Positions 11,167-28,620 of a DNA stretch of 64,000 bases are shown here, in pieces. The DNA comes from Serendipita indica DSM 11827 (taxonomy: Eukaryota > Basidiomycota > Agaricomycetes > Sebacinales > Serendipitaceae): contig CAJVGD010000010.1 of NCBI GenBank assembly GCA_910890315.1, positions 1,116,001-1,180,000 of the forward strand, given 5' to 3'. A program made the translations under genes and the position numbers. How positions within the stretch are numbered: the first letter of the stretch is position 1; the number at the start of each line of letters is the position of its first letter. The notes beneath the pieces are model-generated. The model was not told where the DNA came from. It was given only the letters and a program-made list of their open reading frames with translations, and did not search any database.

Positions 11167-12640
11167 TTATGTCTGCCCTCGCCGTCTTTGCCTCGCAGCG
11201 TACAGCTTGCGCATCCTTCCGAGCTCAAAAATGGTCACACCCCATTCCCGTCTCCACTCGTCCTCGGACAATTGATCCGGATCGTCCGTCGGCACATATC
11301 CCGCATCTTCCAACTTGCGCTCTAGTCTTTCGGGTATATACTTTCGATGCTTCTTGGCCCATTTAGCGAGTGGCGTGTTGATTCGTAGCTGGATACGCTC
11401 TTCTGTATGCTCGGGCTCGCTTGTAGGCGAATTGGATCGCGAGGGCGTCACACTTTCCGTCCCGCGGTTCCTCTCCGCGAGGTTTTGCCTCGAAGCTGTC
11501 ACAGAGGGTGTCGAGAGTGGGATACTGATAACCGACTCGTCGAGATAGGCTGGTGGAAGGCTTGCGCTATCCGAGTGATCCGCTACGCGGAAGGTGCTCC
11601 CGAATGGATTTGGATCCTGTTTGCGGTGAAAATCGGCACTCTTTGCACGGGATGAAGGTGATGTATAAGATAGGTTTGAGTATCGATATGGTGTGATGCC
11701 TTCTGCATTACTAGGCACCTCCGGACTTGGAGGATCCGGAGATGGCACTGTCGTGGGAAGCACGTACTGTTCCGGTTCAAGTTGCTCCAGTAGTTGACCT
11801 CGACGCTTCCTTCTGTAGAAGAGGATGCCAGCTGTTAAAAATGCGATGAGAATGACACCGCCCACGATTACGCCAACAATTAATGCGATGGAAGCGCCAT
11901 GAGCAGGTCCGACAGATGAGCCCTGAGCAGGGGTAGACTCCGAGTCTTTTGCCAACTGTGGGTCGATTATGTGAAAGGTGCCCCCTTCCATGCGGTAGTA
12001 CACGCTAGCGCCGTGTGGCCGACGAATTGTCAGGTCGACTGCGACTGGGATATCTCGAATCTGCGCAGGAACCGTCCCATTGAGTATGATAGAGCGTGCT
12101 ACAGTACCTTTCAATCAGCCTTTCCGCGTTGTAAAAGGGAACTGACCAGTCCTTGTCTGGCGCCTCTTCGTGATCAATCTACTGTCTTCTACAAGGAGCG
12201 GTGTAGATACTGTGTCATCTCCTACAACCGTCTTGAGGCTTGTCCTGGCATCCTGTTCGTGACTCGATGATGCCCATGTAGCAGAGTACGAGAATGAGCT
12301 AGGAAAGAGCCCGTTGAGAGGAAATTGGTTGGATTTTGAGAGGACTTACTAGTCAAGTGATTCTGATCCATTCAAATAATTAACTGGAGCGGTCCAATTT
12401 GACCAGAATCGCACATTGTACTCTAGCTCGCTTGCGTCCGGGTACACCCAGCATACGATACAGCTCGGTACACTTGTACAATCGTCTTCTTGAGAGAGCG
12501 AGCCTATCATATACCGTCCACTGCGTGAGTAAGATCAAGATCGAAGGTCCAGAAGAGGAGAGTGACATACAGTGAACATCCGTACTCGATGTATGCCACC
12601 TCCACAACGCATTTGTACCATCTACTACCAATTTTCGCAT
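11167..12640 (-). CDS. Single-pass membrane protein with C-terminal SAM-like module (cluster member C)
   Basis: Four exons on the minus strand: 12640-12571, 12503-12350, 12298-12147 and 12107-11167, giving 438 residues in one frame. Exon lengths 154 and 152 and all phases match member G exactly. The N-terminal region has a WRWHTSSTDVHC segment, then a CTSVPSCIVCWV cysteine cluster and an N-glycosylation site (NWT). A membrane helix of about 25 residues (ASIALIVGVIVGGVILIAFL) is followed by RRKRRG, so the tail should be cytosolic. After ~130 Pro/Ser-rich residues comes the shared module: LAKWAKKHRKYIPERLERKL, then AGYVPTDDPDQLSEDEW and GVTIFELGRMRKLY. The start at 12640 gives the right phase, but an earlier exon is possible. 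No signal peptide is visible. Function unknown. Confidence 0.78.
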
Positions 12641-13388
12641 CTTGAAGGTAGAGGACGGGTCCAAGTTTGACGATGGACAAAGCGCCGGCTTCACGGTAAG
12701 CTGTATTTCTATCACGGAATCGGCGTGGACATATGGGTACGATTCGCCGGCGATACACTGCTGGCTGTCTCAGTTTCCCGGCCAGCGCGGCTTTGCGCTG
12801 CAAAGAGGCGGTGCGCCGATGACCGGACTAACCCAAAGAACTGAGAAATCCAGAGTGTCTTCTAGAATGGTTTCATCTTAGAAGCGACCGGTGTTGGTGA
12901 TTCCGCGCCATACCAGGGCGAAGCGGCTGTCGAATAGGCGCTGCGCTGTCGACAGATTCAAATACAGATTCGATAAGGAATAGAATATTAAATTAGAACC
13001 ATGTTTTGCGCTTTATCCTCCGCCGACATGGGAGGATTGTAACTGTAGCACGGTTGGAGCCTTTTCGTAATCAACAATTGAAATTTACGAGCGTTACTGG
13101 ATGTCACTGTTCATTCAAATCAAACAAATATCGCACGCTGGAAGCGAGCTTGGTGCCGTTGAGTCCAGGTGAGGTGCTCAGCATCCTTGGCAAAAGTTTA
13201 TACAACCCCGTCGATTTAGAGTGGCTTGCTAGTAGCCGACAGTTGCATAGCGGTATCTACAGAGAAAGTTGATACAAGACTGGGCACCATATTCCAACCA
13301 CACGACTTAACGGTAGAGCAAATATTGACACGCTCTGCGCTGTAGATGACAATATCAGTAGATGAATGAGATTGGTGATGATATTCAC
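12641..13388. other. Intergenic region, nothing recognised
   Basis: This lies between the 5' end of member C and the 3' end of the F-box gene. An open frame at 13006-13272 has no supporting motif. No repeat or RNA gene was seen. Confidence 0.35.
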
Positions 13389-14568
13389 CTAGTGAAGCTC
13401 CTCGAATACCAGAGCCGAGTCAAGTTTCCCACAGTCCCTGGCGATTATCTCCAGAATGATAGCCCTATACCCGCGAAAGAGTCGAAATTTGATTGTCATA
13501 AAGGTTAACAGCGGTCTTCGCCCAAGGACAAGCCCGAACATTCTTAACCAATCGCCTACTTGATAAGGGGAATCAAGGTGGAGAATGAGGTGCTGTAGAG
13601 ACGCATGGGGCTCGCGTGGCTCGACGCTGTTATTGCAGATAGGATCGCCTTCCAAAGATAGGGTTTGGAGACGTGGACAGAGGTAGATGAGGTGGAGTGC
13701 CCGAGGTAGCTCCTCGTCGGCTACATCGAGGATATTGAGATGAAGGTAGGTGAGATTGGCAGAGTTACCCCACAAGAAGCCGGTGAGTCCCTTATTTGAT
13801 GGCTGGCGAAGACAAAGTCCAAGCCACTCTAACTTCGGAGAGGAGAGATGGGAAAAAACGTTATCGCAGGAGATGAAAAATCGCTTGAGTTGAGGAAATT
13901 CAACGTTTGTCCGTAGGGTGCCTTGGACGTTTCCCGGCCGCTCAGCGAGGAGAGCCAATGTCTCCAACTCGGGATTCTTCTCGGCAAGTGAGACCAGACT
14001 GTGGGTGGAAAAGGTGCGCGTCTGCAAATTCGCCTGCTTCAAATTGCGTGCCCATCCTAGGTCGATCGGGGACGCTCTACTCGGCCCGCGGAAGTATATA
14101 AAAGTAGTTACGATCCTCGAATTGGGACAGTGCTCATGGAGCTTTCCCAGTAGAGCAAAAGTATTGGCATCATCACCAGCGAGGATATCAGAGAATAGGA
14201 TAGTAATGCGCCGCGTCAGATTTCCAGGATTCCAAGTCTTGGATCCTATTCTCCAGCGTGCAGTAGAAACGCTCAACCCCCGACGAGTAGAAGATGACAT
14301 CATCCAGGAGGAGCTCTAGGATAACAGGCTCAAGCTTTTTGCAAATCATTCGCAGTCGAGCCCGCTCGCGTTGACGATAGCGAAGAGATGTCCATTTCTT
14401 CGGTAATAAACCACCACCGAAGAAATTAGTAGGCGTTAGCAGTGGAGTCGGATTGGGTGGGATTACTGTCAGAAATATCTCTCGCCATAGTTCAGTTGGA
14501 AGTAGATGTGTGGAATCTACTGGACTTTCATATGTATTTTTAACGAGGCGTGCGTCTGGAGCTTGCAT
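13389..14568 (-). pseudogene. F-box/LRR-like protein with one frame break
   Basis: The 5' part (14568 to about 14230) encodes an F-box start (LLPTELWREIF) after a short leader. The 3' part (about 14235-13389, another frame) encodes ~300 residues of irregular leucine-rich repeats (LKRFFISCDNVFSHLSSPKL, LTYLHLNILDVADEELPRAL, RLQTLSLEGDP). F-box proteins recruit substrates to SCF ubiquitin ligases, with the LRR part binding the target. The two parts overlap in different frames at 14188-14303, so a single-base indel near 14225-14235 separates them. No intron with proper GT-AG ends bridges it. It is either a young pseudogene or an assembly indel. A second F-box/LRR gene of the same style lies at 26.7-28.0 kb. 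Confidence 0.65.
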
Positions 14569-14927
14569 TTTTGTATAGCGGCGAAATCGCTGCAGATAGC
14601 GCCGGGTCCAAGGTACGATTGGAGGTGCGCGAGGTTGATCCCGTTATCTGATTATGATTCCAAATAATCCGGGAGACTGACTGGGTTTATATTCAACGTC
14701 TGTCAACCTCTTGACGTCGGGTGTCAGTGTTATTTTGGCGTCTTGGTCTTGACCACATCTGGAAGTTAGACTCAAAGTCGCCATCCAGGTCCAATATATC
14801 GAGTATTTACTCGTTATATACCAAGTACACCAGGCTGAAGCCTCATCAATCATTTGGGGACCCGTCTGGACACCAGGAGACGCCGTTTATGAGCACCAAC
14901 AACAACAAAACATTGTCCTAAACTACC
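14569..14927. other. Divergent intergenic region between the F-box gene and the orphan gene
   Basis: About 360 bases from which the F-box gene and the orphan gene diverge. I recognise no TATA box, repeat or coding exon here. Confidence 0.35.
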
Positions 14928-15836
14928 ATGTCACAATACTTCCTTCAAGAGGAACTCTATCGCATACCCGTGCCTTTGCTTCACTCTTGGCCATTCGTCG
15001 AGAGCCGCTTGAGTCCCTTTCTCACCTTCTTCACACCCCAAGATGCAAGAGTCTTATCGTCGAGAGATGATCAGAAGAAGGTCGACTTTTGTAACAACCA
15101 GCTCCGTCTGTATCTCAACAGCACCGAGTGGACTGGCTCATGGAGGATGAAGAGTGATGCGTCGGATTCGGCTGCACTTGGATTTCCAATTTGCGTCCCA
15201 GAACTCACCCTCGCAAGCTCTGCGGTGTACATCACTCGCAGCCTATACGGGTCACTCATTAGCCCCCATGACCTCATTCATCTTGTCCTCAGTCTTCTGT
15301 GAGTGTGCGCCTGCAAATTTATTCTACTCGCTCTTACCTGTGTAGGTTCTGCGTAATCTGTGGAACGATGATACATACCACACTGACTGAAGATGCGCCC
15401 ATCTTCGTTGGTTGGCGGACGATCAACACTCAAAATGTGGATGTTGACAGGCTCCAGTTGAGTACGAGGACTGTTCGTACTGGAGCATGCTCGGGCATAT
15501 GTTGACCAACACCCGTCGGCCACCATGCTTTCGTCTGACAGTAATATACACTCGATGCGTCGCAGGTACCACCGTGTTCAAGGTATACATGCCGTAGTAG
15601 CCAAGAACCGCCTTGACCATTCACATAGCGAAAGTATAGCGAACACATCAAGTACCTCGACCTCTTGGATATCTACGGCAACTTTGACTCTCAACGATTT
15701 GAGAAGTGGATACGAGCTGTCGTTCTCAATGCGATGTCAGTCCCTTATGGTTCTGCATGGGTAAGCTTTTCTCGGTCCCGGATTCCCGACTAGTACTCAC
15801 CCAACGCAGAACCTTTATCACCTCACACTAACATGA
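14928..15836 (+). pseudogene. Unrecognised orphan gene, four exons, one frame break
   Basis: I do not recognise the product. Plausible exons are 14928-15298, 15346-15582, 15629-15760 and 15810-15836, each bounded by GT-AG. They would give about 255 residues, but the total is not a multiple of three. Inside exon 2, near 15440-15450, the frame must shift to pass from IFVGWRTINTQNVDVDRL into VEYEDCSYWSMLGHMLTNT. Later exons read KRKYSEHIKYLDLLDIYGN and EKWIRAVVLNAMSVPYGSAW. No membrane segment or signal peptide was seen. It converges on the prephenate dehydratase gene, with 56 bases between the two stops. The pattern suggests a real gene that is decaying or mis-assembled. Confidence 0.5.
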
Positions 15837-15892
15837 TACCAATTTCGTTCTTCTTTCGTTCGATTATTTTTCTTTCCATTATGGCCTATGTA

Positions 15893-16943
15893 TCACCATA
15901 CACCAAGAATTACAGCCTCTGTACCCGTGCCGAGTGTTGTGATGAGGGTCGACACCTCGTTTTGGAGATTTGGCGACGGAGAAAAGTGAGTGAGTTCGAC
16001 AAAGTAAATGTCTGTCCATGGCGAGGAAGAAGGATTTGGTCGGCGGTCTATCCGTAGGATCTTTAGCTTGCTCGACCATGCGGCGCTCGTAATGGATGAG
16101 AGAAGGGAAGAGATTTCTCCTGCAATGCTGAATCGGATTAGCGCTTTTGTCGGCGCTGGGATAGTTGGAAGCGCAGGATGATGGCGGTGACCAAGGATAA
16201 GGAATCGAGTTTGGTTGTCTGGGGTTAAAGATCAGTGATAATCCAAGGGATGTTGGAAGCAGATTCACCATCCCTGTCCTGGATGCTCGGTGCCAGAATC
16301 CTAAGGCCAGAATAGATTGACGTGCATATTCGGGGGCAGATGGCGGCACATGTGTGGTCTGAGTCGAGTTCTAATAGCTGCTTTGCAGCACCAGACGTGC
16401 TGGGTGTCTTGATCTTCGCGGCGTTTGGAAGATGGCGGGTAAGCCAGGACGAACATTGTCCGAGAGCTTGCTCATGACTCCATACTGTCTTGATGCGCTG
16501 AAGCACCCCCTCGTCTTTATCATTCGTCGGTAAATCACGAATGACGAGACAATGCTCGATCTTCATCACAATTTCTCCAATAATGTGGACGTCTTTCGAC
16601 CATCGCCCGGACCTTAAAAGGTCGAGTGTTTCTATTACCTGACCATGCGTCGAGTTGGCGATGGGAAGGCAGGCGAAAGGGATCTCGGATGATAACGCGT
16701 CAAAGGACTCTATGGTCGTCAGGTGCCGTGAGTGGGACGGTGTAAATCGAGCCCACTAGCAATAGATGGTTGAGGATCATATGATACACTATCGCCAAAG
16801 TAGTTGTTTGCCGCCTAACGCTTTTATCAGTTGAAACGACCAGATATTTGAACATGGCCAGAGCCTACTTGGTGGGTATGTGTTCCACTTGGTCCTAAAA
16901 AGGCCACTTTTGATTTACTTATTCCATTCGGACTCGTCGCCAT
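15893..16943 (-). CDS. PHA2: Prephenate dehydratase (phenylalanine biosynthesis)
   Basis: Minus-strand gene. Exon 1 (16943-16869) encodes the family start KVAFLGPSGTHTHQ. Exon 2 begins at 16814 (AANNYFGDSVSYDPQPSIA). The large third exon (about 16697-16270) encodes PFACLPIANSTHGQVIETLD, IIGEIVMKIEHCLVI, VWSHEQALGQCSSWL and the ST-AA motif. The next exon starts NQTRFLILG and leads to a C-terminal ACT-like regulatory part (LKILRIDRRPNPSSSPWTDI, then YFVELTHF). The enzyme turns prephenate into phenylpyruvate, and the ACT domain usually gives feedback inhibition by Phe. The join inside the ACT region near 16100-16130 is uncertain: it needs a further intron or an indel. The start codon lies only 65 bases from that of the divergent MRPS16 gene. 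Confidence 0.85.
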
Positions 16944-17008
16944 TTTGGTCGAGGTCGCGGTAGTAGTCAAACTTGACCTCGACCGCCAGCGAGCAAAAAC
17001 ACCAAAGA
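16944..17008. promoter_or_regulatory. 65-base bidirectional promoter with a 10-base inverted repeat
   Basis: The entire space between the start codons of prephenate dehydratase (minus) and MRPS16 (plus) is 65 bases. It contains GGTCGAGGTC at 16947-16956 and its exact reverse complement GACCTCGACC at 16975-16984, with an 18-base spacer, so both genes face the same element. It could be a shared factor site or lie in overlapping 5' leaders. The role is inference. Confidence 0.55.
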
Positions 17009-17460
17009 ATGCCTGTTCGCCTTCGTCTCGCGCGTCACGGCACGACAAACAATCCATTTTATCATATTGTCGCCATTAATCAACGAAAAGCGCGCAACGC
17101 CAAACCACTGGAACTCCTTGGGACGTACGATCCTATCCCACGCGCTCCGACCATCAACAAGAAAACGTATCCGGAGATGTATGCCACGAGCTCTCAACCT
17201 CATGACGGCGTTGCGACAAAACGCGTCGAATGGAACCTTGAGAGGATACACTGGTGGATAAGCCAGGGAGCGCAGCCGTCTGATTCTGTTATGAGACTAT
17301 TTACAATGGTGAGGCTCATCTTACGACTTCTGGATGAAACTAAACTTTCTTAAAGGCGGGTATAGAGGTGCCTTTCCGGAAGGATTGGGTTGAAAAGCAT
17401 CCACCGCAAGGAACACTATATCACCACATCGAGAAACCGTCGAAGAAGACAATGGCATAG
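17009..17460 (+). CDS. MRPS16: Mitochondrial ribosomal protein bS16m
   Basis: Two exons, 17009-17308 and 17356-17460, give 134 residues. The protein starts MPVRLRLARHGTTNNPFYHI, the standard S16 N-terminus, and continues VAINQRKARNAKPLELLGTY and WISQGAQPSD. It is a small-subunit protein that helps fold the 5' domain of mitochondrial rRNA. The intron has a GTGAGG donor and TTAAAG acceptor and joins RLFTM to AGIEVPFRKDW. In-frame codons exist upstream to 16973, but the ATG at 17009 matches family length. The 3' half of this gene, intron included, was copied to 19.85-20.4 kb. Confidence 0.92.
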
Positions 17461-17990
17461 TTCTTGACTGGTCGGTCATCTGCGCGACTTACTTCACGCT
17501 CCTCGATACTTGTAGCATTGTAAGATAGCCTACCCATTAATCGCTACCCAGTCTGTTCAGACTATTTGAATGGAGGTATGTCTCTGAAAAGTGGCCATCT
17601 GTACAGGTTCGGACTGGAGGGAGAACGCTCCCTTCATTGGCAGTGCTCGCGGACACGCAGCTCGCCAAATTAGCGCCGGCCGGATACGTTCCTACAGGCA
17701 ATCCAGATAGTGTTTACAAGGACGAGTAGCTGAGCGAGGATGGAGCGACAAATTCGAGCTGGCGAGGATCTGAGTGATTTATCAGGTACCCTTTCCCGTG
17801 TTACAGCAACTTCGATTCCTAATAGGTAGATATCGTTCTAGCCCTCCACTTGCCATGGTTTATTTGGGAACGATCGTGCTCCTTGATCGCTTAGGAGATC
17901 ATACCAATACAAATTACGTCGATCTCGGAAGTGAACTACCATACTCGACCATCCACATCTTGGCACCGTGCCAGCAGTATTGAGTCATGC
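17461..17990 (+). pseudogene. Decayed C-terminal fragment of the SAM-like membrane-protein family
   Basis: At about 17640-17800 the translation LAKLAPAGYVPTGNPDS followed by degraded sequence matches the shared C-terminal module (KLASAGYVPTDNPDG in member D). The DNA continues to resemble the module (gagctggc, then tatcaggta) with stops. No matching membrane helix or N-terminal region lies upstream, only the MRPS16 3' flank. This is therefore a tail-only relic of a sixth family member, probably left by duplication or unequal exchange. The rest of the interval shows nothing I can name. Confidence 0.6.
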
Positions 17991-18112
17991 TGGATGCTGC
18001 TGGCAGACAAGAAAAGCCAAGGCGATAGTAGAGCCTAGGTCACTCAATAAAAGGGAAGACGGCTGGGTGGTGGTGCAACTGGACTCTACCCATTGGTGAG
18101 GGCCTCATTGAG

Positions 18113-19564
18113 ATGGCTTCGGTTCCATACCGCGACTTTGCTTCTCAGGGTCGCATGTTGGTCTCGGATGGAGGTGCATGGTCCGCTTGGGCAACCCATT
18201 CGGACATAACTTGTATGTTGACGGGAATATTTGCGCGTGTAGTCGTTCACCCTTTGCTTTTGTTCCTCTGTAGGTACCACGATCGAATGGGGGTGGTGTG
18301 GAAAATGTATCCAATGTCGTCACCCCTGGTCATCCATCTACGAATCGTGGTACAAAATCGTGTTGTCTGCCAACGTCTCTGTGCCCATCGACACCCATAA
18401 CCGACCCACATCGCTCACATAGTCCGTCCGCCTGGATAAATTGCTCCTCTACTGACCGCTTCTTCAGCGGGTTCTCATACACTCTCGCTTGGGCTGCCTC
18501 CGGGTCCTATTACGGGATGGATTTAACCTCAATAATGCATGTTGGCAACGATTCTTACCTTCAGACTTTTCAACCCTACGCATATTCTTTTCTCACTAGC
18601 CAAAATGAGACTGGTAAGTAACTACCACTAGGGTGACGCTACTAAGCTCCAACCAGGCCATACCATTTCTCACTGGGGTACTATTAACGTTGAGGATAAT
18701 GATTATCCCTTTGCCTACGTTCCAATGAGGATCGAAATAACGTTCCTTGGTGCCCCATATACGTATTACTTTGTGAAGAATCCCGGCTTCTTGATCACGT
18801 CTCCCACCGGATCCAATGGCCTTTTCATCGGATCTCCACCTCCTGGCCTGAATCCTGAGTCTGGGAAGACCCAGAATCGGGTAGGAGTAATTGTAGGGTC
18901 CATTGTAGGCGCTACCGTGCTCGCACTCGTTGGAATCTTTGTGTGGATTCGTCTTCGAAGGCGTACTTCAAGAGAACATGTTCAGCAACCCACAACGACA
19001 CCTGGTGTTGAAGATGCCAGGACAATGGCCAACACAGCTACAGCTCCTGCGACGTCTTATTACTATGGTGCCGATGAATCACGAATGTCTACCGTATCGG
19101 CATGGCCCATCCCCTCTTCCCCGGGGCAAACATACACAGATATACAAATCCCCAAACCAGTCCCTGCATTTTCGGGAGAGCAACAGCAACAGGATCCACC
19201 TCGTGACATGTCGGATACATCGTCCATCATAACAAGACCCCCTGCATACGACCCAGCACACCCAGTACGAACGCGGGCTACTTCGCCACCATCATGGTCG
19301 CGCCATGCTTCGACGAGTAGTGGAGCTCCTCTGCTACATCGAACTTCAACGGTGCCAGAGGAGGTGGCTGAGGAGACGGGGTTGGCGCAATGGGCGCGCA
19401 TACATCGAACCCAAATTCCAGCAAGGTTGGAAGCCAAACTTGCCTCTGCTGGGTATGTTCCTACCGATAATCCAGACGGCATCCCCGAGGAGGAGTGGCT
19501 ACAGGAATACGGAGTGACAAAGTTTGAGCTGGCAAGAGTTCGGGCATTGTATCAGAAGGTGTAA
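18113..19564 (+). CDS. Single-pass membrane protein with C-terminal SAM-like module (cluster member D, type 1)
   Basis: Four exons, 18113-18212, 18274-18421, 18468-18613 and 18657-19564, give 433 residues with all phases consistent. The N-terminal region starts MASVPYRDFASQ, has SDGGAWSAWATHSDITC, a WCGKCIQC cysteine cluster, glycosylation sites (NVS, NET) and a FSYTLAWAASGSY segment. It ends at a membrane helix of ~23 residues (VGVIVGSIVGATVLALVGIF) followed by RLRRR. A ~190-residue Pro/Ser/Thr-rich cytosolic tail with PPAYDP leads to the module: LAQWARIHRTQIPARLEAKL, AGYVPTDNPDGIPEEEW and GVTKFELARVRALYQ. Exon 2 ends with a GTCCGT donor. No cleavable signal peptide is seen, so the helix may act as the anchor with the N-terminus outside. 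Sensor or receptor function is inference. Confidence 0.82.
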
Positions 19565-19852
19565 CCCGACATCACTATATCTCGCTAGATTCTTCCTTTC
19601 TGAATCTTCCTCCTAATGGTTATTGTTCCTCGATCATGTTGATTGACTAAGGATTCCGAAATCTTCGTTATGTTAGACGCTCCGATAGCTGCGACCAAAC
19701 TTAATTTTAGAGACTAAACCAGTCAATAGCATGCCTGGGAGCTCATTTATCCTATTCTTAGCTTCTTGCGACAGTTCACTCTGACGGATTCATACCTGAG
19801 GTGCGCCGGATCCGCTCTGTATTTTGTTCGCCAGCAACAAAGATAGAAAACA
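19565..19852. other. Intergenic spacer after member D
   Basis: This is the 3' flank of member D, leading into the MRPS16 partial copy. No gene or repeat was recognised. Confidence 0.3.
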
Positions 19853-20395
19853 CATGACGGCATCACAACGAAACCCGCCGAGTGAAACCTTGAGAGGAAC
19901 AATAAGCGAGGGAGCGCGGGCGTTTGATTATGTCTTGAGACTATTACAATGATGAGGCTCATCTTACAACTTTGATGAAACTAAAATTTCTTAAAGGCGG
20001 GCATAGAGGTGCCGCTCCGGAAGGATCGGGTTAAAGCGTTCATCGCAAGAGAATACTATATCATCACATCGAGAAGTGGTGAAGAAGTGTAAGGATTGGT
20101 TCACCTTACAGGTCCGAACCCGGCCGACCAGGTTGGATTACCTGAGTAACGGGGTACATAGGGAGTGTAACGCGTCGGAGGGAAAAGAAGGACACTATAG
20201 TCTAGTGGTCTAAGGCTAAGTCGGTGCGAATCCAGCTTGTTCCATTTTCCCACGGCCAAACGTTACAAGAAGACAACGGCGTAGTTTTGACTGGGCAGTC
20301 AAACGCGCGACCTCACGCTCCTCGATACTTTTGTAGCATACTCCGCCTTTAATTCTTATCTAGTCATTTCAGGGTGTTGGATCGATGCACGTGTA
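19853..20395 (+). pseudogene. Partial copy of the MRPS16 gene (3' half with its intron), split by a solo LTR
   Basis: The sequence tracks 17200-17540: end of exon 1, the intron (gatgaggctcatcttacaac), the AAAGGCGGGCATAGAGGTGC junction, exon 2 and the 3' flank (cgctcctcgatactt). It carries many substitutions and small gaps. Because the intron is retained, it arose by DNA duplication and not through mRNA. A 180-base solo LTR (20088-20267) sits inside exon 2 with a 5-base target duplication. It lies between members D and E, so it probably travelled with the duplication that built the membrane-protein cluster. Confidence 0.75.
20088..20267. mobile_element. Solo LTR of an LTR retrotransposon (fossil)
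   Basis: 180 bases starting TGTAAGGATT and ending AAACGTTACA, with short terminal inverted ends (TGTAA/TTACA). It is flanked by AGAAG on both sides (20083-20087 and 20268-20272). The parental MRPS16 sequence has this pentamer once, so the empty site is known. No internal coding region remains. A TGTAA...TTACA border is common in Gypsy-type LTRs; that family call is tentative. Confidence 0.7.
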
Positions 20396-20794
20396 TGGAA
20401 GAGTCGCCTTCCATTCCGAATCAGCATAAATAACTCTCTCAGTCGACCTTGTGCTCTTTCTTACTACTGAATATTGGTGGACTTCCTCATTATTTGGCAG
20501 ATGGTTTGCAGTTACCGCTTGAACCGGACAAGGTCAGTGTCTATGCGCACGTGGTTAACTTCCCGCGCCCAGATGCGACTGGTGGACGCTCCGGAGACGA
20601 TCCAGGAACTAGTATGAAAACTCATTTTCCGAAGAATATAACTGGCATACAACGTAATGGGCAATGAATTCCGAAACAAGGCAGATACTTCCCAGGTGTG
20701 GAATGGCAGAGCAATACATACACGTCTTGTATACCTCTGAACAGAACCGCGCTTGGTCTCTATCTTTATTTCTTGGACTCCTACCGTGCCAATA
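20396..20794. other. Upstream region of member E
   Basis: No gene is supported. The last ~60 bases before the ATG of member E resemble the matching region before member G (cttggactc... before the start codon), so the duplicated unit includes some promoter sequence. Confidence 0.35.
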
Positions 20795-22271
20795 ATGCCA
20801 GGGGGAGTGACCTCCTACCAAGATCTCCAGACAAGTAACGGCGCGTTTGCCAACGATGGTGGACCCTGGATGGTATATAGGTCTTTTGCGGACGACATAA
20901 ACTGTAAATTTGCCTATATGGTCGCCATGTTTTTGTTTGCTGACTTCGATGCGCTTTAGGTGGAAGTCGTCAAGACGCCTGGTGCAGAGATTACGCATAT
21001 TGTCTCGCTTGCTGGGTGTTTCCAAGCGCCACACAGACTGCTTACACGTCTCCTTCTACACAAATGTCTCATTCGAACTCAATCACTTTGGAATGCTACT
21101 CACCTCGACTAGTCAGCCATTTGATTTGCTACTGGCCCATGCTGACTTATTATTCGGACAGCGCATGGAAGTATGCACCATGGTGGGGAAGCGGAAAGAA
21201 TGAAGCAGACAGTGTCCTTGCCATAAGATCGGCAGTTGGTGACCAGCAATATGTTGATACACTCAAGGTCGGAAACTGGACGCTTCTACAGGGCCTCGGA
21301 CAAGGTTGGGATGGTTCGTTTTGTTGGTCTGCTTCTTCAAAGCCTGGTTTCTTATCACCACCTCTAGGGTCATTTTTCTCCCATAATGGTACCACCGGCC
21401 TTGTCACAAATGCGGACAAAACAACTGGTTACCTCCAGATCGCAATCAACATTACCTTTTCTCGTCAGGCAGACGAGTACATCAACTACTATGTCAAAGG
21501 TCCTTCTCTCAGAATCACAACGCCTACGATAACACCAATATCTTCTGGAAGTGTATCGGTGCAGATACTCCATCGAGTACACAGAATCACACGGGCACCA
21601 TTGTCGGCGTGACCCTCGGTGCTGTGTCCATGATCATCCTAGCCGTCATTGGCTTCCTCATTTTTAGAAGACGCCAAAAGCGACAAAACCGTCAAGCAAA
21701 CGACGATGGCAATCCCAGTCGTCGAGCCCTTTCACACCCTTTCGACCAACAGCAGAACCCACTTGCATCGGTCAACAAGGATTCACGATTCACGTCTCGA
21801 CCAGGGGTTGCTATGATAACCCCCAGTAGTGATCAGAGATCATTGCTCACTTCTCTTTCCGGATCGCAGAACCCGGATCCACAACACGCCGCGCATCTCC
21901 CTGCACTGACCATCCCCGGACCATCTTGTATGAATGGGCCCCATCACTTGGATAATGCCTACATAGCGTACACCGATGACATGCCGCCAGCATACGCTTC
22001 GGCCCAGCCACTACAATCGGCGGTGGGAGGTCAAGGCCAGACGTTACCTGTAACTGGAGGCGCAGGCTGGGCGAATATGTCTCTTGCGCAGTTTGCACAG
22101 GAGAATCGTAATGCGATTCCAGAAAGTTTGGAGGCAAAACTCCAGAGATCAGGCTATGTGCCAGCTAATGATCCAGATGCACTCTCCAAGTCCCAGTGGA
22201 GAGACGTGGGAGTAACCAAACTCGAGCTCTCGAGATTGAGTCTCTATCAACGTGGACTGCAAGCTGGTTAA
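20795..22271 (+). pseudogene. Single-pass membrane protein, cluster member E (type 2), frame-broken
   Basis: The exon layout is the same as member G: 20795-20903, 20960-21111, 21162-21313 and 21368-22271. The start MPGGVTSYQDLQTSNGAFAN is nearly identical to G. The cysteine segment CRDYAYCLACWVFPS, the GDQQYVDTLKVGNWTLLQ block and the membrane helix (TIVGVTLGAVSMIILAVIG, then RRRQKRQ) are conserved, as is the module (IPESLEAKLQRSGYVPANDP and GVTKLELSRL). Exon 2 is two bases shorter than in G, with a shift near 21048. Another shift near 21545-21565 separates the N-terminal region from the helix. It is therefore probably a pseudogene of the G type, unless these are assembly indels. The module itself also lost residues in its last helix. 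Confidence 0.72.
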
Positions 22272-22874
22272 GGATCGTAACTCGGTCGGATTAGCACTAG
22301 GCAGAAGTCTCATATCAAGTAATAATGAAAGTAGACTTCTCATAGGTTACTCCTTCATACCATGGATTGCGTCCTTTATTTGGGGTACATGGGTCAGATA
22401 AAACTTAGAAACGCGTGGTTGTTTTGAGATCATGCTCAATTCTCAGGGAGATTTCGGATCAGACCATTATTAGAATAGGGGCTATAGGAATCATCAAATA
22501 CTGGTGACACTCAGAAGGGGGTTTATGATGGCCCTTCACTTACCTATCGCCCTGCTCGTCCTGATGGTCCTGCCACGCTAATGTCCTTTCGTACGGCCGC
22601 GAGACCTCTGAGACTGTAGTCCGATCGAGCTCTAATATCGATTTATCAGTAGAACGAACCTGCATGCCAGCAACTTGATATTCGACCTGCCAAGTCGCCG
22701 AGTATTCAATGCTGGTAGCTAGTGTCGACGCGGTAATTAGTCACTCCTCATTGGGCGTGTGCTCATCGTGCGTTGAAAGGGTCAGTCTCTCCCATGATTT
22801 ACAATAAATGAAGGGGCCTCTAGCCTCTTAATTCCGCCCTCTTTCTCTCCCCCTCCCGTCAGATCAGTCCGCCA
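22272..22874. other. Intergenic spacer between members E and F
   Basis: About 600 bases without a supported gene. The sequence just before 22875 (pyrimidine-rich, ctctttctctccccctccc) looks like a leader for member F. Confidence 0.3.
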
Positions 22875-24309
22875 ATGTCCACAGCCTATCGCGATTTCGC
22901 GTCTCAGAGCCATATGGTCGCCGCTAATGGAGGAGCATGGTCGGTTTATGTATCTCATTCCGACGTCTTTTGTATGTCTGCAACCTGTGCCTTATACTCG
23001 CTGATCGAGTTTTGCTATAGGTAATACCATCGAATGGTCCTGGTGCGGAAAATGCGTTCAGTGCCGTCAAATATACACTGAGCCATACCACGAACCATCG
23101 TACAAAGTCGTTTTCTCCGCTAATGTCTCTGTGCCCATCGATACTCGTAACCGGCCGCGATCGCTTACATAGTCCGTTGTTCCATGTAGACTGACGCTGG
23201 ATTGACGGTTCTCAGTGGGTTTTCCTACACTGTGGCCTGGACTGCCTATGGATTATTTCCAGGGATGGACCTCACATCGGGGGCATATGTTGGGGACAAC
23301 ACGTATCTCCAGAACTTTCAGAGCTATCCATACCCTTTGTCAACACCCAATCTGGGGCAGGTACGTATCACCTTCTGTTTCCTGCATCTGACGCTGATCT
23401 GGGACCCAGGCTATACAATTTCTCACTGGGGAATCCTCAATACCAAGGATACTGTTGATTCAGTCGTTTATGTTCCAATCAGGATTGAACTCACATTCCC
23501 GGGTAAAGAAAGCACGTTTTATTTCATGAAAGACGCCGGCTTCTTGATTACGTCTCCTGTCAACTCTGACGGCTCATTCGTTGCACCCACATCTTTAACC
23601 CATCTACATATCCAAATCTCGAATCCACCCAATCCAAGACTCGCGTGGGAGCGATTGTCGGTTCAGTCGTCGGTTTCATTGTCCTCGGCCTCGTCGTCCT
23701 CGTCGTGTACCTTCGCCTTCGAAAACGTATCTCGACCAATCGGACAGACATTGGCCAACCTGCAATGGTCGGGGCCGAGGGTGGTCGGCCATTGTCGAAT
23801 ACGGATCCATCGACGTCGTACTATGGTCGAGATGAATCTGGGAGGTCGACAGGGTCGCCATGGCGGATCCCTCTTCGCCAGCGAACACGGATGGCCCACT
23901 CCCCAAGCCGGTCTCAGCCTTGATCCACGAAGAACAGCAGCACCCACGTCGGGATGTGGCCGAGATATCGTCCATTGTCACACGGCCACCTGCGTATGAC
24001 CCAATACGGATGCATGTCTCCCCATCACCGTCGTCGCGCAATGCTTCGACACGTAGCAGTGCACCTCTGCTCAACAAGACATCACCGGTGCCAGAAGGCG
24101 TTGAAGAGGAGACGGGATTAGCAGAATGGGCACGCACGCACCGGTCTCAAATTCCAGCAAGGTTGGAGGCCAAACTGGCGGCTGCTGGGTATGTTCCTAC
24201 AGACAACCCTGATAGCATCTCGGAAGAGGAATGGTTGCGCGAGTATGGAGTGACAAAGTTTGAGCTGGCCAGAGTTCGGACGCTGTACCAAAAGTCGACC
24301 GCGGCTTGA
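22875..24309 (+). pseudogene. Single-pass membrane protein, cluster member F (type 1), frame-broken
   Basis: The exons match member D: 22875-22971, 23021-23171, 23216-23361 and 23410-24309, with the same phases and the same GTCCGT donor. The N-terminal region has NGGAWSVYVSHSDVFC, WCGKCVQC and FSYTVAWTAYG. The helix VGAIVGSVVGFIVLGLVVLV is followed by RLRKR, and the module reads IPARLEAKLAAAGYVPTDNP, SISEEEW and GVTKFELARVRTLYQ. The frame changes near 23590, between the N-terminal region and the helix, and again near 23860 in the Pro-rich tail. All three pieces still encode recognisable family sequence, so the breaks are recent or artefactual. It is the type 1 partner of member G in the second copy of the two-gene unit. 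Confidence 0.75.
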
Positions 24310-24791
24310 GAGATGCCTCGACGTGTAATCATCCTCTTGGATTTCATTTCCGAATCCAGCGTGGTTTTTTGTACCTTTTTTGGCGTCTGAAAGATTGAGC
24401 GACGGCTTGGACCTGACAATGTTGTCGTGTTGCCAGGAATGTCAAAAACCAATATCAAGAACGTTCTGAATGGCACTATTAGGTGGATCATTACCGCGCA
24501 CAGCAGTGACCGAATTGAAATGCGGAGATGAAGGCGGTCAGGGACTTGCGTGGAAGCTCATCTCGTTGAAGAAATGTGTACAATATGGAGCATAACGGCA
24601 CAAGGAATCCGCCAATCCGCCGGACCCTCCTTGTGATGAAGGGGCTGTGAGATGATTTCGAACGCTGTGTAGGCGCCATATTCTCTCACGGCGGCTATCG
24701 AGAAACAGAATTAGCAGCGGCTACTAAGTTTTGTTTGCACTTGTGTTACTTGGACTCGTACTCCACAAACCATTTGTGACCAAGTTTAACC
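24310..24791. other. Intergenic spacer between members F and G
   Basis: About 480 bases with no supported gene. The part just before 24792 resembles the upstream region of member E. Confidence 0.3.
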
Positions 24792-26348
24792 ATGCCGGGC
24801 GGTGTCATCTCCTACCAGGATTTCCAGACAAGCAACGGCGCATTTGCCAACGATGGTGGACCCTGGATGGTCTATAGATCATATTTAGACGATATAAACT
24901 GTACGTCTCCCAACTTGGTCTCAATGCCGCCCTGCTAACTTCCGCGGCTTCAAGGTGGAGCTCGCCAGGATGCCTGGTGTAGGGATTACGCGTACTGTCT
25001 TGCTTGCTGGGTCTTTCCAAGCTCGTCCCAGCCATCCTACACCGTCTCCTTGTTCACCAATATCTCATTCGAGCTCGATCGCTTTGGCAACGCCTCTCAA
25101 CTCGACTAGTCAGCAACTCCATTCATTACAAGTTCATACATACTTATGATTCATTATAGCGAATGGAAGTATGCGCCGTGGTGGGGAAGTAGCAAGAGCG
25201 AAGTCGGCAGCGACCTTGTCATGAAATCGGCAGTGGGTGACCAGCAGTACACCGATACACTCAAGGTTGGAAACTGGTCACTCCTACAGGGGACTGGGCA
25301 AGGTTGGGATGGTACGTGCTCTAACTCCGCTTCATCGGAGTTTGCTTTCTCATTGTCGTCTCCAGGGACACCGTTCTCCCATACAGGTACAGCAGCACTG
25401 TTAACAAACGCCGAGAAGACGGTTGGGTACCTTCAAGTTGCGATCAACGTTACTTTTCCTCGCCAACCCGCCGAGTACATTAATTACTATGTCAAAGGCG
25501 CTTCGCTCAAAATCACTACACCAACGACGACGCCGTTGCCGCCAGGAAATACACCTGGATCACCACCGGCTGCAAAGTCGAATACTGGCGCTATTGTGGG
25601 AGCAGTGCTCGGCGCCGTCGCCATGATTATCCTGGCCGTCATTGGTTTCCTCATCTTCAGGCGGCGCCAAAAGCGGCAAGAGGGCGAACTACACGATGAT
25701 ACCGCCCCCTCTCGCCGATCCGCTCTTCACCCAACACCCTTCCCACCGATGCAGCAAAATCCTGTAGCCTCGACAAGTAACGATACACGGTTCATCATTC
25801 CCTCAGGAGGGCCTGTGATGACGCCTGCTAGTGACCAAGGATCATTGCTCATGTCGACGTCTGCCGCCGAAAACGCCGCGCTTCTTCCACAGCGCCAAAC
25901 CGTCGTCGTCTCCCCTGAATTCTCCAACACGAATTCATCCGGCGCAAATGGATTCCGTCACTCGAACAGCGCTTATACGGCCTACACCAACGACACGCCA
26001 CCAGCCTATATAGGCCCCACCTCGCCTCGCCCACCGCAGTCGACAGTCGACAGCGGCACGCTATCCGTCACAGGTATGGGTGGAACGAGTATGTCCCTTG
26101 CGCAATTTGCGCAGGAGAATCGTGGTGTGATTCCAGAGGACCTGGAGGCAAAGCTCTTGAGGGCGGGCTACACGCCGAGTGATGATCCAGATGCAATCTC
26201 GGAAGAGGAATGGCGAAGAGACTGGGGAGTGACCAAGCTTGAGCTGTCGAGATTGCGCGCGCTCTACCAGCGAGGCGCGCAAACAGGCACGGGCTCATCG
26301 TTCAGCCCCAGCACAGGAGGCGGTTGGCAGTCGCATATCAAACGATGA
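24792..26348 (+). CDS. Single-pass membrane protein with C-terminal SAM-like module (cluster member G, type 2)
   Basis: Exons 24792-24900, 24955-25108, 25160-25311 and 25366-26348 give 465 residues with consistent phases. The N-terminal region has MPGGVISYQDFQTSNGAFAN, WCRDYAYCLACWVFPSSS, sites NIS, NAS, NWS and NVT, and GDQQYTDTLKVGNWSLLQ. The helix GAIVGAVLGAVAMIILAVIG is followed by RRRQKRQ. The ~190-residue cytosolic tail is Ser/Pro/Gln-rich and ends in the module: LAQFAQENRGVIPEDLEAKL, AGYTPSDDPDAISEEEW and GVTKLELSRLRALYQ. Intron 3 is 54 bases, a multiple of three with no stop, so a longer form with 18 extra residues is possible. No signal peptide is apparent. Function unknown; the architecture suggests a surface sensor with a protein-binding tail. 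Confidence 0.82.
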
Positions 26349-26696: not shown

Positions 26697-27982
26697 CTAC
26701 ATTTCCCGAGCTTCGGAATTGTAGTAAGACGCGTCTTCAGACGTGTGATGGCTGCCTTCTTCGTCAAATATATCAATCTTGAGCTCCCTAACCATGGCCA
26801 TGAGGCGTAGCTGCGCTTTCAACTTGTTAAAGTCAAAGTGGAGGCCCCCAATTCTCTCATCCCATGTACTCTCAATCATTAATCTAAACTTGACGGGTGC
26901 TTGTGCGAGTTGCAGCACAGATCTCCGGAGCGTCTTCCAGTCTTCTGACTGGACTTCGGCAGCTATCATTTGGATCGTAAGATGGCGTTCAGGTCGACAG
27001 ATTACGTCTGTAGAAGAAGTGACAGCAGTGATCAAATGAGGAATAACGGTGCCAAGTGATCCGAGGTGGCCTGTTATGTACGTTTGCAGACGTGGGAGTC
27101 CGTTGGTGCAGGATGCGAGAAGATCAGCGTCGACTTTCGCTGCTCCATATGATGCTGTTGAAATCTTGAGTTCCTCTACCGTCCTCGAGTGACGCTGAAG
27201 AAATGGTCCTAAGGGTCCGCTGGAAGAGTTGTACTTTTCCGAAAAAGACAGGTACTGGAGTGTATGAAAGTGCCACTTTTCGAGATATTGAGCGTTGCTT
27301 TCACAGGCGTTGATACCCAGAAAACGTAATAGTGGCAAGGTGAGGTCCGGGAATGAGTTCCACGAATATTCGTCAAGGGGCGCAATATCCAAGGCTACCA
27401 ATGAGCCAAAACATGAGTTTTGGAGTGTTTCCATCCATCTCGAGTTGCGCGTCGGATGCACCCAGCGTAGGGCGAGAATGGAATGTTCGAATGGAGGACT
27501 TGGAATCACGATGTCACGATGGTAAACATGTGTAATGGGGAAGAAGGATGCGTTCTCGCCGATGATGACCGGGGATGCGTCGGTTTTCTTGTCCCATGCA
27601 AGGAGGGCCCTGGTTCGATTTTGCGTGGCCAATTGGTGTACGAAGACGATTCGCAAGCAATGTAATGCATCAGCTTGACGTTTTCAGTTTTATAGTCTAT
27701 CGGCAGCTTCATGCCCTCGTCGAGATGGAGGAAGGCAATGTCATCGCAAATCTCATCTGCTACGAGCTTCCAACGGCGCGATACCAGTCGGAGAATGCCC
27801 CTTTGCCGCTCTCTTCTCTTGTAACCGTAAATCCGAGACCCATCTTCGGCGAAGACGTGCTGTTCATATCCTCGTAAACTTGATTGTACCGGATCAGTGA
27901 GCGAGAGTCCAACGCAATGGCGAAGTATTTCCTCCCAAATTTCTACAGGAGTTCTTGAACTAGCGGCTTCAGGTTCTGTCAT
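26697..27982 (-). pseudogene. F-box/LRR-like protein with one frame break
   Basis: The 5' part (27982 to about 27650) encodes an F-box-like start (SSRTPVEIWEEILRHCV) and LRLVSRRWKLVADEICDDIA, typical of basidiomycete F-box proteins. The 3' part (about 27655-26697) is in another frame and encodes ~315 residues of degenerate leucine-rich repeats (ILALRWVHPTRNSRWMETL, LRFLGINACESN, LQYLSFSEKYN, LQTYITGHLGSLGTVIPHL). The frames meet near 27650, where no intron with proper ends fits, so one indel is likely. The product would be a substrate adaptor of an SCF ubiquitin ligase. It is related in style to the F-box gene at 13.4-14.6 kb. Confidence 0.65.
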
Positions 27983-28620
27983 GGTGTCAAGACTTTTGCC
28001 GGATGAGGTCGAAGGTCAAGCATGTGGCGGCGATTCGTGACTCCGACACAACTCGATGAGCCACTTAGCACAGTCAGAAACGCCTTTCTTGACTGTTCTT
28101 TATATCTATTGCACACCCTACTCATCTAAAGGTAGTCTCAGTTGACCATGCAAGCGACCTATTAGCCCCTCGTGAAACCAGAACAAAAACGAGCGATCAC
28201 AGGACCACTAGAATATTCGTATGTCTCCGTACAGACGCCCGGATAGCATGCTCATTTCAGTTAGTCTCCTAGCCAATAGCATCCCCCTGGCTGTCGTTTT
28301 GCGCCCCTGTTGGCTATGTAGTTGTGCGGGTTTTCACTAGGATTGGCAGGATTCATGTCGTTCATCACAATGCCCAAAACGCACGCCAACTATTATGCTC
28401 GGCAACTTAGCTTTCAAGGCATAGATGTGTTTGAGTAGTGAAGGAATACTCGTTAGCGCTCGAAATATAGTCGAATTGTGCATGAGAAGATTTCTTCAAA
28501 TTGTGGTAGCAGCTTCGGGCGTGCACCCACTCTAGGCGTACCCCTGGGAGGTTGATGGGGGGAGGTTGAGAATGAAGCGAAGACGTTGAAAATAGCCTGG
28601 ATACACACGACCGATCTCAG
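27983..28620. other. Intergenic region, nothing recognised
   Basis: About 640 bases upstream of the F-box gene. No supported gene or repeat. Confidence 0.3.

Follow-up and report, generated by a model that had tools for sequence, protein, structure and literature searches.

A Serendipita family of receptor-like single-pass membrane proteins with a conserved C-terminal module and a PY motif in the tail

A 64,000-nucleotide window of the Serendipita indica DSM 11827 genome (C10:1116001-1180000 of a 24.7-Mb assembly in 55 contigs; coordinates are those of the window unless a contig is named) holds, within 15 kb, five copies and one relic of a gene family with a common plan: an ectodomain is followed by a single membrane helix, then by a Pro/Ser tail and, at the C terminus, by a module of about 60 residues. 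This architecture had been proposed in a reading of the sequence alone and was borne out, with the helix and module lying within one open gene model in each of genes R, A, and D. Three features go beyond that sequence-only reading: a PY motif in the tail, a predicted ectodomain fold like that of carbohydrate-binding modules (CBMs), and a gene model on another contig in which the module follows a CFEM domain. We suggest, with about an even chance of being right, that the proteins are surface glycoproteins of a Serendipita family, receptor-like and with a single membrane pass, in which the module docks or oligomerizes in the cytosol and the PY motif controls ubiquitin-dependent sorting.

A module profile with six seed rows, four of them window copies (the modules of R, A, C, and D), matched the window at six places, five full (E values from 6e-24 to 2e-38) and one partial (E = 1e-5). 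Because the other four window copies are seed rows, only the copy at 22077 and the relic are independent finds here. Five genes and a tail fragment had been counted previously; the five full copies and the relic are present, but only R, A, and D are intact, each as an open four-exon model, and B and C have broken reading frames. Gene R (11167..12640, minus strand; exons 12640-12571, 12503-12350, 12298-12147, and 12107-11167) encodes 438 residues, with the PY motif PPAY at 11545..11556 and the module at 11191..11376 (E = 4e-37), both on the minus strand. Its start codon is uncertain and its N terminus is shorter than those of its relatives; it has four cysteines and a sequon in the family columns. 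All other copies lie on the plus strand. The relic (17637..17726) runs for about 30 residues before a stop. Gene A (18113..19564; exons 18113-18212, 18274-18421, 18468-18613, and 18657-19564; 433 residues) carries PPAY at 19238..19249 and the module at 19376..19561. Gene D (24792..26348; exons 24792-24900, 24955-25108, 25160-25311, and 25366-26348; 465 residues) carries PPAY at 25998..26009 and the module at 26091..26276, and its product and database protein P0001 share 462 of 465 residues, with 3 differences. Motif positions in R, A, and D are derived from the gene models. Copy B (20795..22271), over which lies the database gene prediction CCA71988.1 (P0003), is broken in its second exon and before the membrane helix; PPAY is found at 21984-21995 and the module at 22077..22256 (E = 6e-24), two codons shorter than that of D. 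Copy C (22875..24309), with PPAY at 23986-23997 and the module at 24112..24297, loses its reading frame both ahead of the membrane helix and within the tail.

The claim that the module is the best-conserved part of the protein was confirmed. Among nine family proteins (36 pairs for each region), mean pairwise identity was 0.70 for the module and lower for the other regions (ectodomain 0.46, membrane segment 0.42, tail 0.31); among R, A, and D only, the module was 0.60-0.62 identical and the ectodomain 0.25-0.31. Ratios of nonsynonymous to synonymous substitution (dN/dS) for the module were 0.06 (A/C), 0.15 (B/D), and 0.16 (R/D) at synonymous distances (dS) of 1.2 to 2.7, and because of these values we read the similarity of the modules as constraint and as neither chance nor recent copying. 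Ectodomain ratios were 0.14 (A/C exon 1), 0.06 (B/D exon 1), 0.15 (B/D exon 3), and 0.30 (R/D, whole), with dS in all comparisons between 0.9 and 2.75 and the A/D and R/A pairs saturated at synonymous sites. Positive selection in the N-terminal region, for which a test had been advised, is unsupported, since the usable pairs all fall within these ranges. The broken copies B and C appear to have been under constraint for most of their history.

In each of the nine proteins compared there is one membrane helix, followed by a basic stop, as anticipated; in D (residues 213-243, 25587..25679) hydropathy peaks at 2.94, and the 20 residues after the helix hold 7 K/R compared with 1 before it. The ectodomain (residues 1-190), modeled on P0001, which differs from D at 3 residues, was predicted to form a beta-sandwich. 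One sequon column is kept in all nine proteins and four cysteines in eight of them, which may form one or two disulfides, and the domain could bind glycans. No signal peptide is apparent on the window-type proteins, so the membrane helix is probably a reverse signal anchor.

The nine proteins also contain exactly one (L/P)PxY motif each, placed between the membrane helix and the module, and each of the five full copies in the window has the motif. Across the genome it occurs in 14 of 18 tails (12 of 16 that bear a module and 2 without one) against 1.25 expected by shuffling; this set leaves out the C11 and C46 copies and the relic and takes the 1086 kb tail from P0007 (CCA76550.1). Matches to WW and HECT domains are adjacent at three places in the genome, and a candidate ligase with three WW domains lies at C44:204.6k. 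The motif is likely a docking site for a ubiquitin ligase.

On contig C1, a gene model (L064 6093-4948) with GT-AG introns encodes a hydrophobic N-terminal segment, which is a putative signal peptide, followed by a CFEM domain (PF05730, E = 6.1e-8, 33 bits against a cut-off of 22). Between the CFEM domain and a membrane helix lies a Ser/Thr stretch, and the module comes last. Since the module appears on a CFEM ectodomain as well, its behavior is that of a portable output module in the cytosol. We tentatively raise the idea, which we think less probable than its contrary, that it is a lineage-specific cytosolic signaling domain of SAM-like fold that was shuffled onto two ectodomains of unrelated kind, a lectin-like beta-sandwich and CFEM, through which a root endophyte would feed different external signals into one common pathway, in a fungal counterpart of lectin-membrane-SAM receptors.

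Under the receptor-like reading, the CBM-like beta-sandwich, with its one or two disulfides and mostly conserved N-glycan site, would face outward and contact a glycan or protein as a surface sensor. The helix would probably hold the protein with its N terminus out and its C terminus in. A disordered cytosolic Pro/Ser tail would probably recruit a Rsp5/NEDD4-type ubiquitin ligase through its one PY motif, which would set sorting and turnover of the receptor, and the terminal SAM-like helical module would probably oligomerize the receptor or dock it to a common cytosolic partner.

Several results weigh against this reading, beginning with those on the module. The sequence-only reading had likened its ending to that of SAM domains. 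The D module was modeled with a SAM-like fold, but the model also resembles the RAD51 N-terminal domain and other SAM-like domains, and its fold matches fall under the level that the fold-search tool treats as safe. A Pfam scan at E <= 10, whose filters drop most matches above about 0.1, placed no SAM family on 16 module copies, P0014, or the D module, and a genome search with PF07647 at E <= 10 gave four places, none of them a module copy; PF00536 we take to be a further SAM family. When the module profile was compared with four SAM stretches from the same genome, it did no better than shuffled columns: the score of the real SAM profile, 10.5, was equaled or exceeded by 7 of 40 column-shuffled SAM profiles. 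Comparisons of SAM with SAM, run as controls, gave scores of 44 (E = 6.6e-9) and 23 (E = 3.2e-4). The Pfam scans of the modules and longer proteins, together with this chance-level comparison, yielded nothing in favor of SAM membership by sequence, which we reject, and the likeness that had been noticed survives in the predicted fold only. A profile search of solved structures returned nine sequences at E values of 0.57-0.66, all one bacterial O-GlcNAcase, which we read as chance. The module may instead have a different identity, namely another SAM-like or convergent small helical domain that serves as a docking site or as a helix-hairpin-helix-type binding domain and not as an oligomerizing SAM. 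We consider this possible though improbable: the module occupies the end, or nearly so, of surface proteins with one membrane pass, a position known for SAM domains (e.g., in Eph receptors) and an odd one for a nucleic-acid-binding domain.

The PY motif is a second point of doubt. Neither C13 copy has it, nor do two C1 copies, in which the sequence is PPxF, and among 12 control single-pass proteins (the loci among L001-L060 that hold neither module nor ectodomain) it was found in 8, with 1.57 expected by shuffling. Because of these controls the motif is not specific to the family and was rejected as its hallmark. In the eight loci concerned (L017, L021, L022, L027, L051, L055, L056, and L060) it follows the membrane helix, in several at or near the end of the frame; on such module-less proteins it is possibly a general ubiquitin-sorting tag in this fungus. 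The controls also bear on a further alternative, that the family members are transmembrane adaptors of a Rsp5-type ligase, like PY-bearing ones of yeast, whose ectodomain and module choose other cargo for ubiquitination. Such a role would agree with a motif that stands between helix and module in each of the nine tested C10 copies of the module, with the WW-HECT genes of the genome, and with the binding of yeast Sna3p to Rsp5 through PPAY described in PMC2171029. We regard it as unlikely, since a general sorting signal fits the controls better than a dedicated adaptor does and 4 of 16 module-bearing tails have no PY motif.

Further difficulties for the receptor-like reading concern the ectodomain and the CFEM gene. 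Two proteins outside the nine, P0004 and P0009, have no sequon at the family column, and P0009 also lacks one of the cysteines; the N-terminal region had been described as Cys-containing and rich in glycosylation sites, which is borne out for one sequon column in the nine proteins and for four cysteines in eight of them, and not for the sequon in these two. An ectodomain of about 200 residues without a signal peptide is unusual; the genes might have an upstream exon that escaped recognition, or the proteins might reach the membrane by another route. The join of module and CFEM is one gene model, read by eye from genome sequence alone; it rests on one gene because, in a tblastn search of nine loci, the CFEM exons matched nothing but this gene and one first-exon remnant. 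A genome-wide CFEM search did not list the gene, probably because an intron splits the domain, and Pfam scans found no CFEM match in the window sequences scanned or in P0001, P0005, and P0007.

The cluster had been described as a tandem array with decaying copies, and both local duplication and decay are supported. Repeat matches between B and D are spaced by about 4.0 kb and those between A and C by about 4.75 kb, so duplication of an A-B block into C-D fits, and B and C contain frame-changing gaps when compared with D and A. That the cluster consists of decaying duplicates with little present function is very improbable. In its favor are the relic and the broken frames of two of the five full window copies and, elsewhere in the genome, an exon remnant on C1, an incomplete copy on C46, and a C47 copy whose membrane stretch and module fall in different frames. 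Against it, the four-exon frames of R, A, and D are open, the module dN/dS is 0.06-0.16, and several other Serendipita strains have relatives. Within the cluster, a stretch of a ribosomal protein S16 gene lies at 16988-17311 (PF00886, E = 1e-22), and decayed fragments like this region (17.2-17.4 kb) recur at 19848-20035, between A and B, as a trace of local duplications. Two long minus-strand open frames within or beside the cluster (13389-14643 and 26697-28015) have, by eye, an F-box-type look with leucine-rich stretches; a Pfam scan of two stretches of these frames gave no match at E <= 0.01. No tRNA was found in a scan of the window.

Genome-wide, a single-protein search located 18 module copies, or 19 with the window relic. 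Nine are on C10 (at 1086, 1102, 1104, 1106, 1127, 1135, 1138, 1140, and 1142 kb), four on C1, two on C13, and one each on C11, C47, and C46, the last partial. Similar segments at L065 (C47), L066 (C11), and C46:22424 each hold a module copy and, about 0.75 kb downstream, a CFEM match of identical score; they may be a recently copied segment, and these CFEM matches apparently belong to separate neighboring genes. Two genes, at C29:35k and C10:1231k, have the ectodomain and membrane helix, and a module profile search of their flanking stretches detected no module; their reading frames (L067 1696-2580 and L068 1380-2258) both end in a C-terminal LPPY motif.

Homologue searches scored 7,994 candidates with 9 hits at E <= 0.001, 48 with 6 hits at E <= 10, and 7,995 with 11 hits at E <= 1. 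Every hit with a species name is from Serendipita; P0001 and P0013 carry no species name. Restriction to this genus is not proved, because the sensitivity of the searches was limited to short words that the sequences share, and the 48-candidate search missed P0001, which bears the module. The S. indica proteins CCA71988.1 and CCA76550.1 match the genome at 100% and 99% in their best pieces and at lower values beside introns. As the sequence-only reading had supposed, no named family covers the whole protein: neither Pfam nor NCBIfam gave a match over cut-off to it or to the module, and weak matches below cut-off fell mostly on the membrane segment. Family-directed literature searches turned up no paper on these proteins among the matches listed, and CFEM does not occur in the main text of the genome paper, which describes S. 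indica as a mutualistic root symbiont (PMC3192844).

A family of proteins that combine a lectin-like exterior with a probable docking motif for a ubiquitin ligase and a conserved, portable module in the cytosol would offer a direct entry point for finding the partner of the module and the cue of the ectodomain; to our knowledge, few surface receptors of root-dwelling basidiomycetes have been described. The frequency of PY motifs on single-pass proteins raises the further possibility that ubiquitin-dependent sorting generally controls such surface proteins in this fungus.

The closest known systems resemble these proteins in part. In its predicted fold the ectodomain may be like the beta-sandwich of CBM families 4 and 61; a Pfam scan of P0001, P0005, and P0007 at E <= 1 found no CBM family. 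The module may be like the SAM domain (PF07647) in predicted fold, with no match to it in sequence. CFEM-domain membrane proteins share a hydrophobic N terminus and CFEM with the C1 model, whereas the scanned window sequences gave no CFEM match. PPAY is found in the cytosolic tail both here and in Sna3p, a membrane protein of yeast that is sorted by Rsp5; we know of neither this ectodomain nor this module in Sna3p. The order of parts recalls Eph receptors, which have a beta-sandwich ligand domain, one membrane helix, a kinase, and a terminal SAM domain, and the ligand domain of EphA7 was among the Foldseek hits of the ectodomain (E = 2e-4). Pfam scans of the family gave no kinase match and kinship in sequence is not shown, so the resemblance to Eph receptors is one of analogy.
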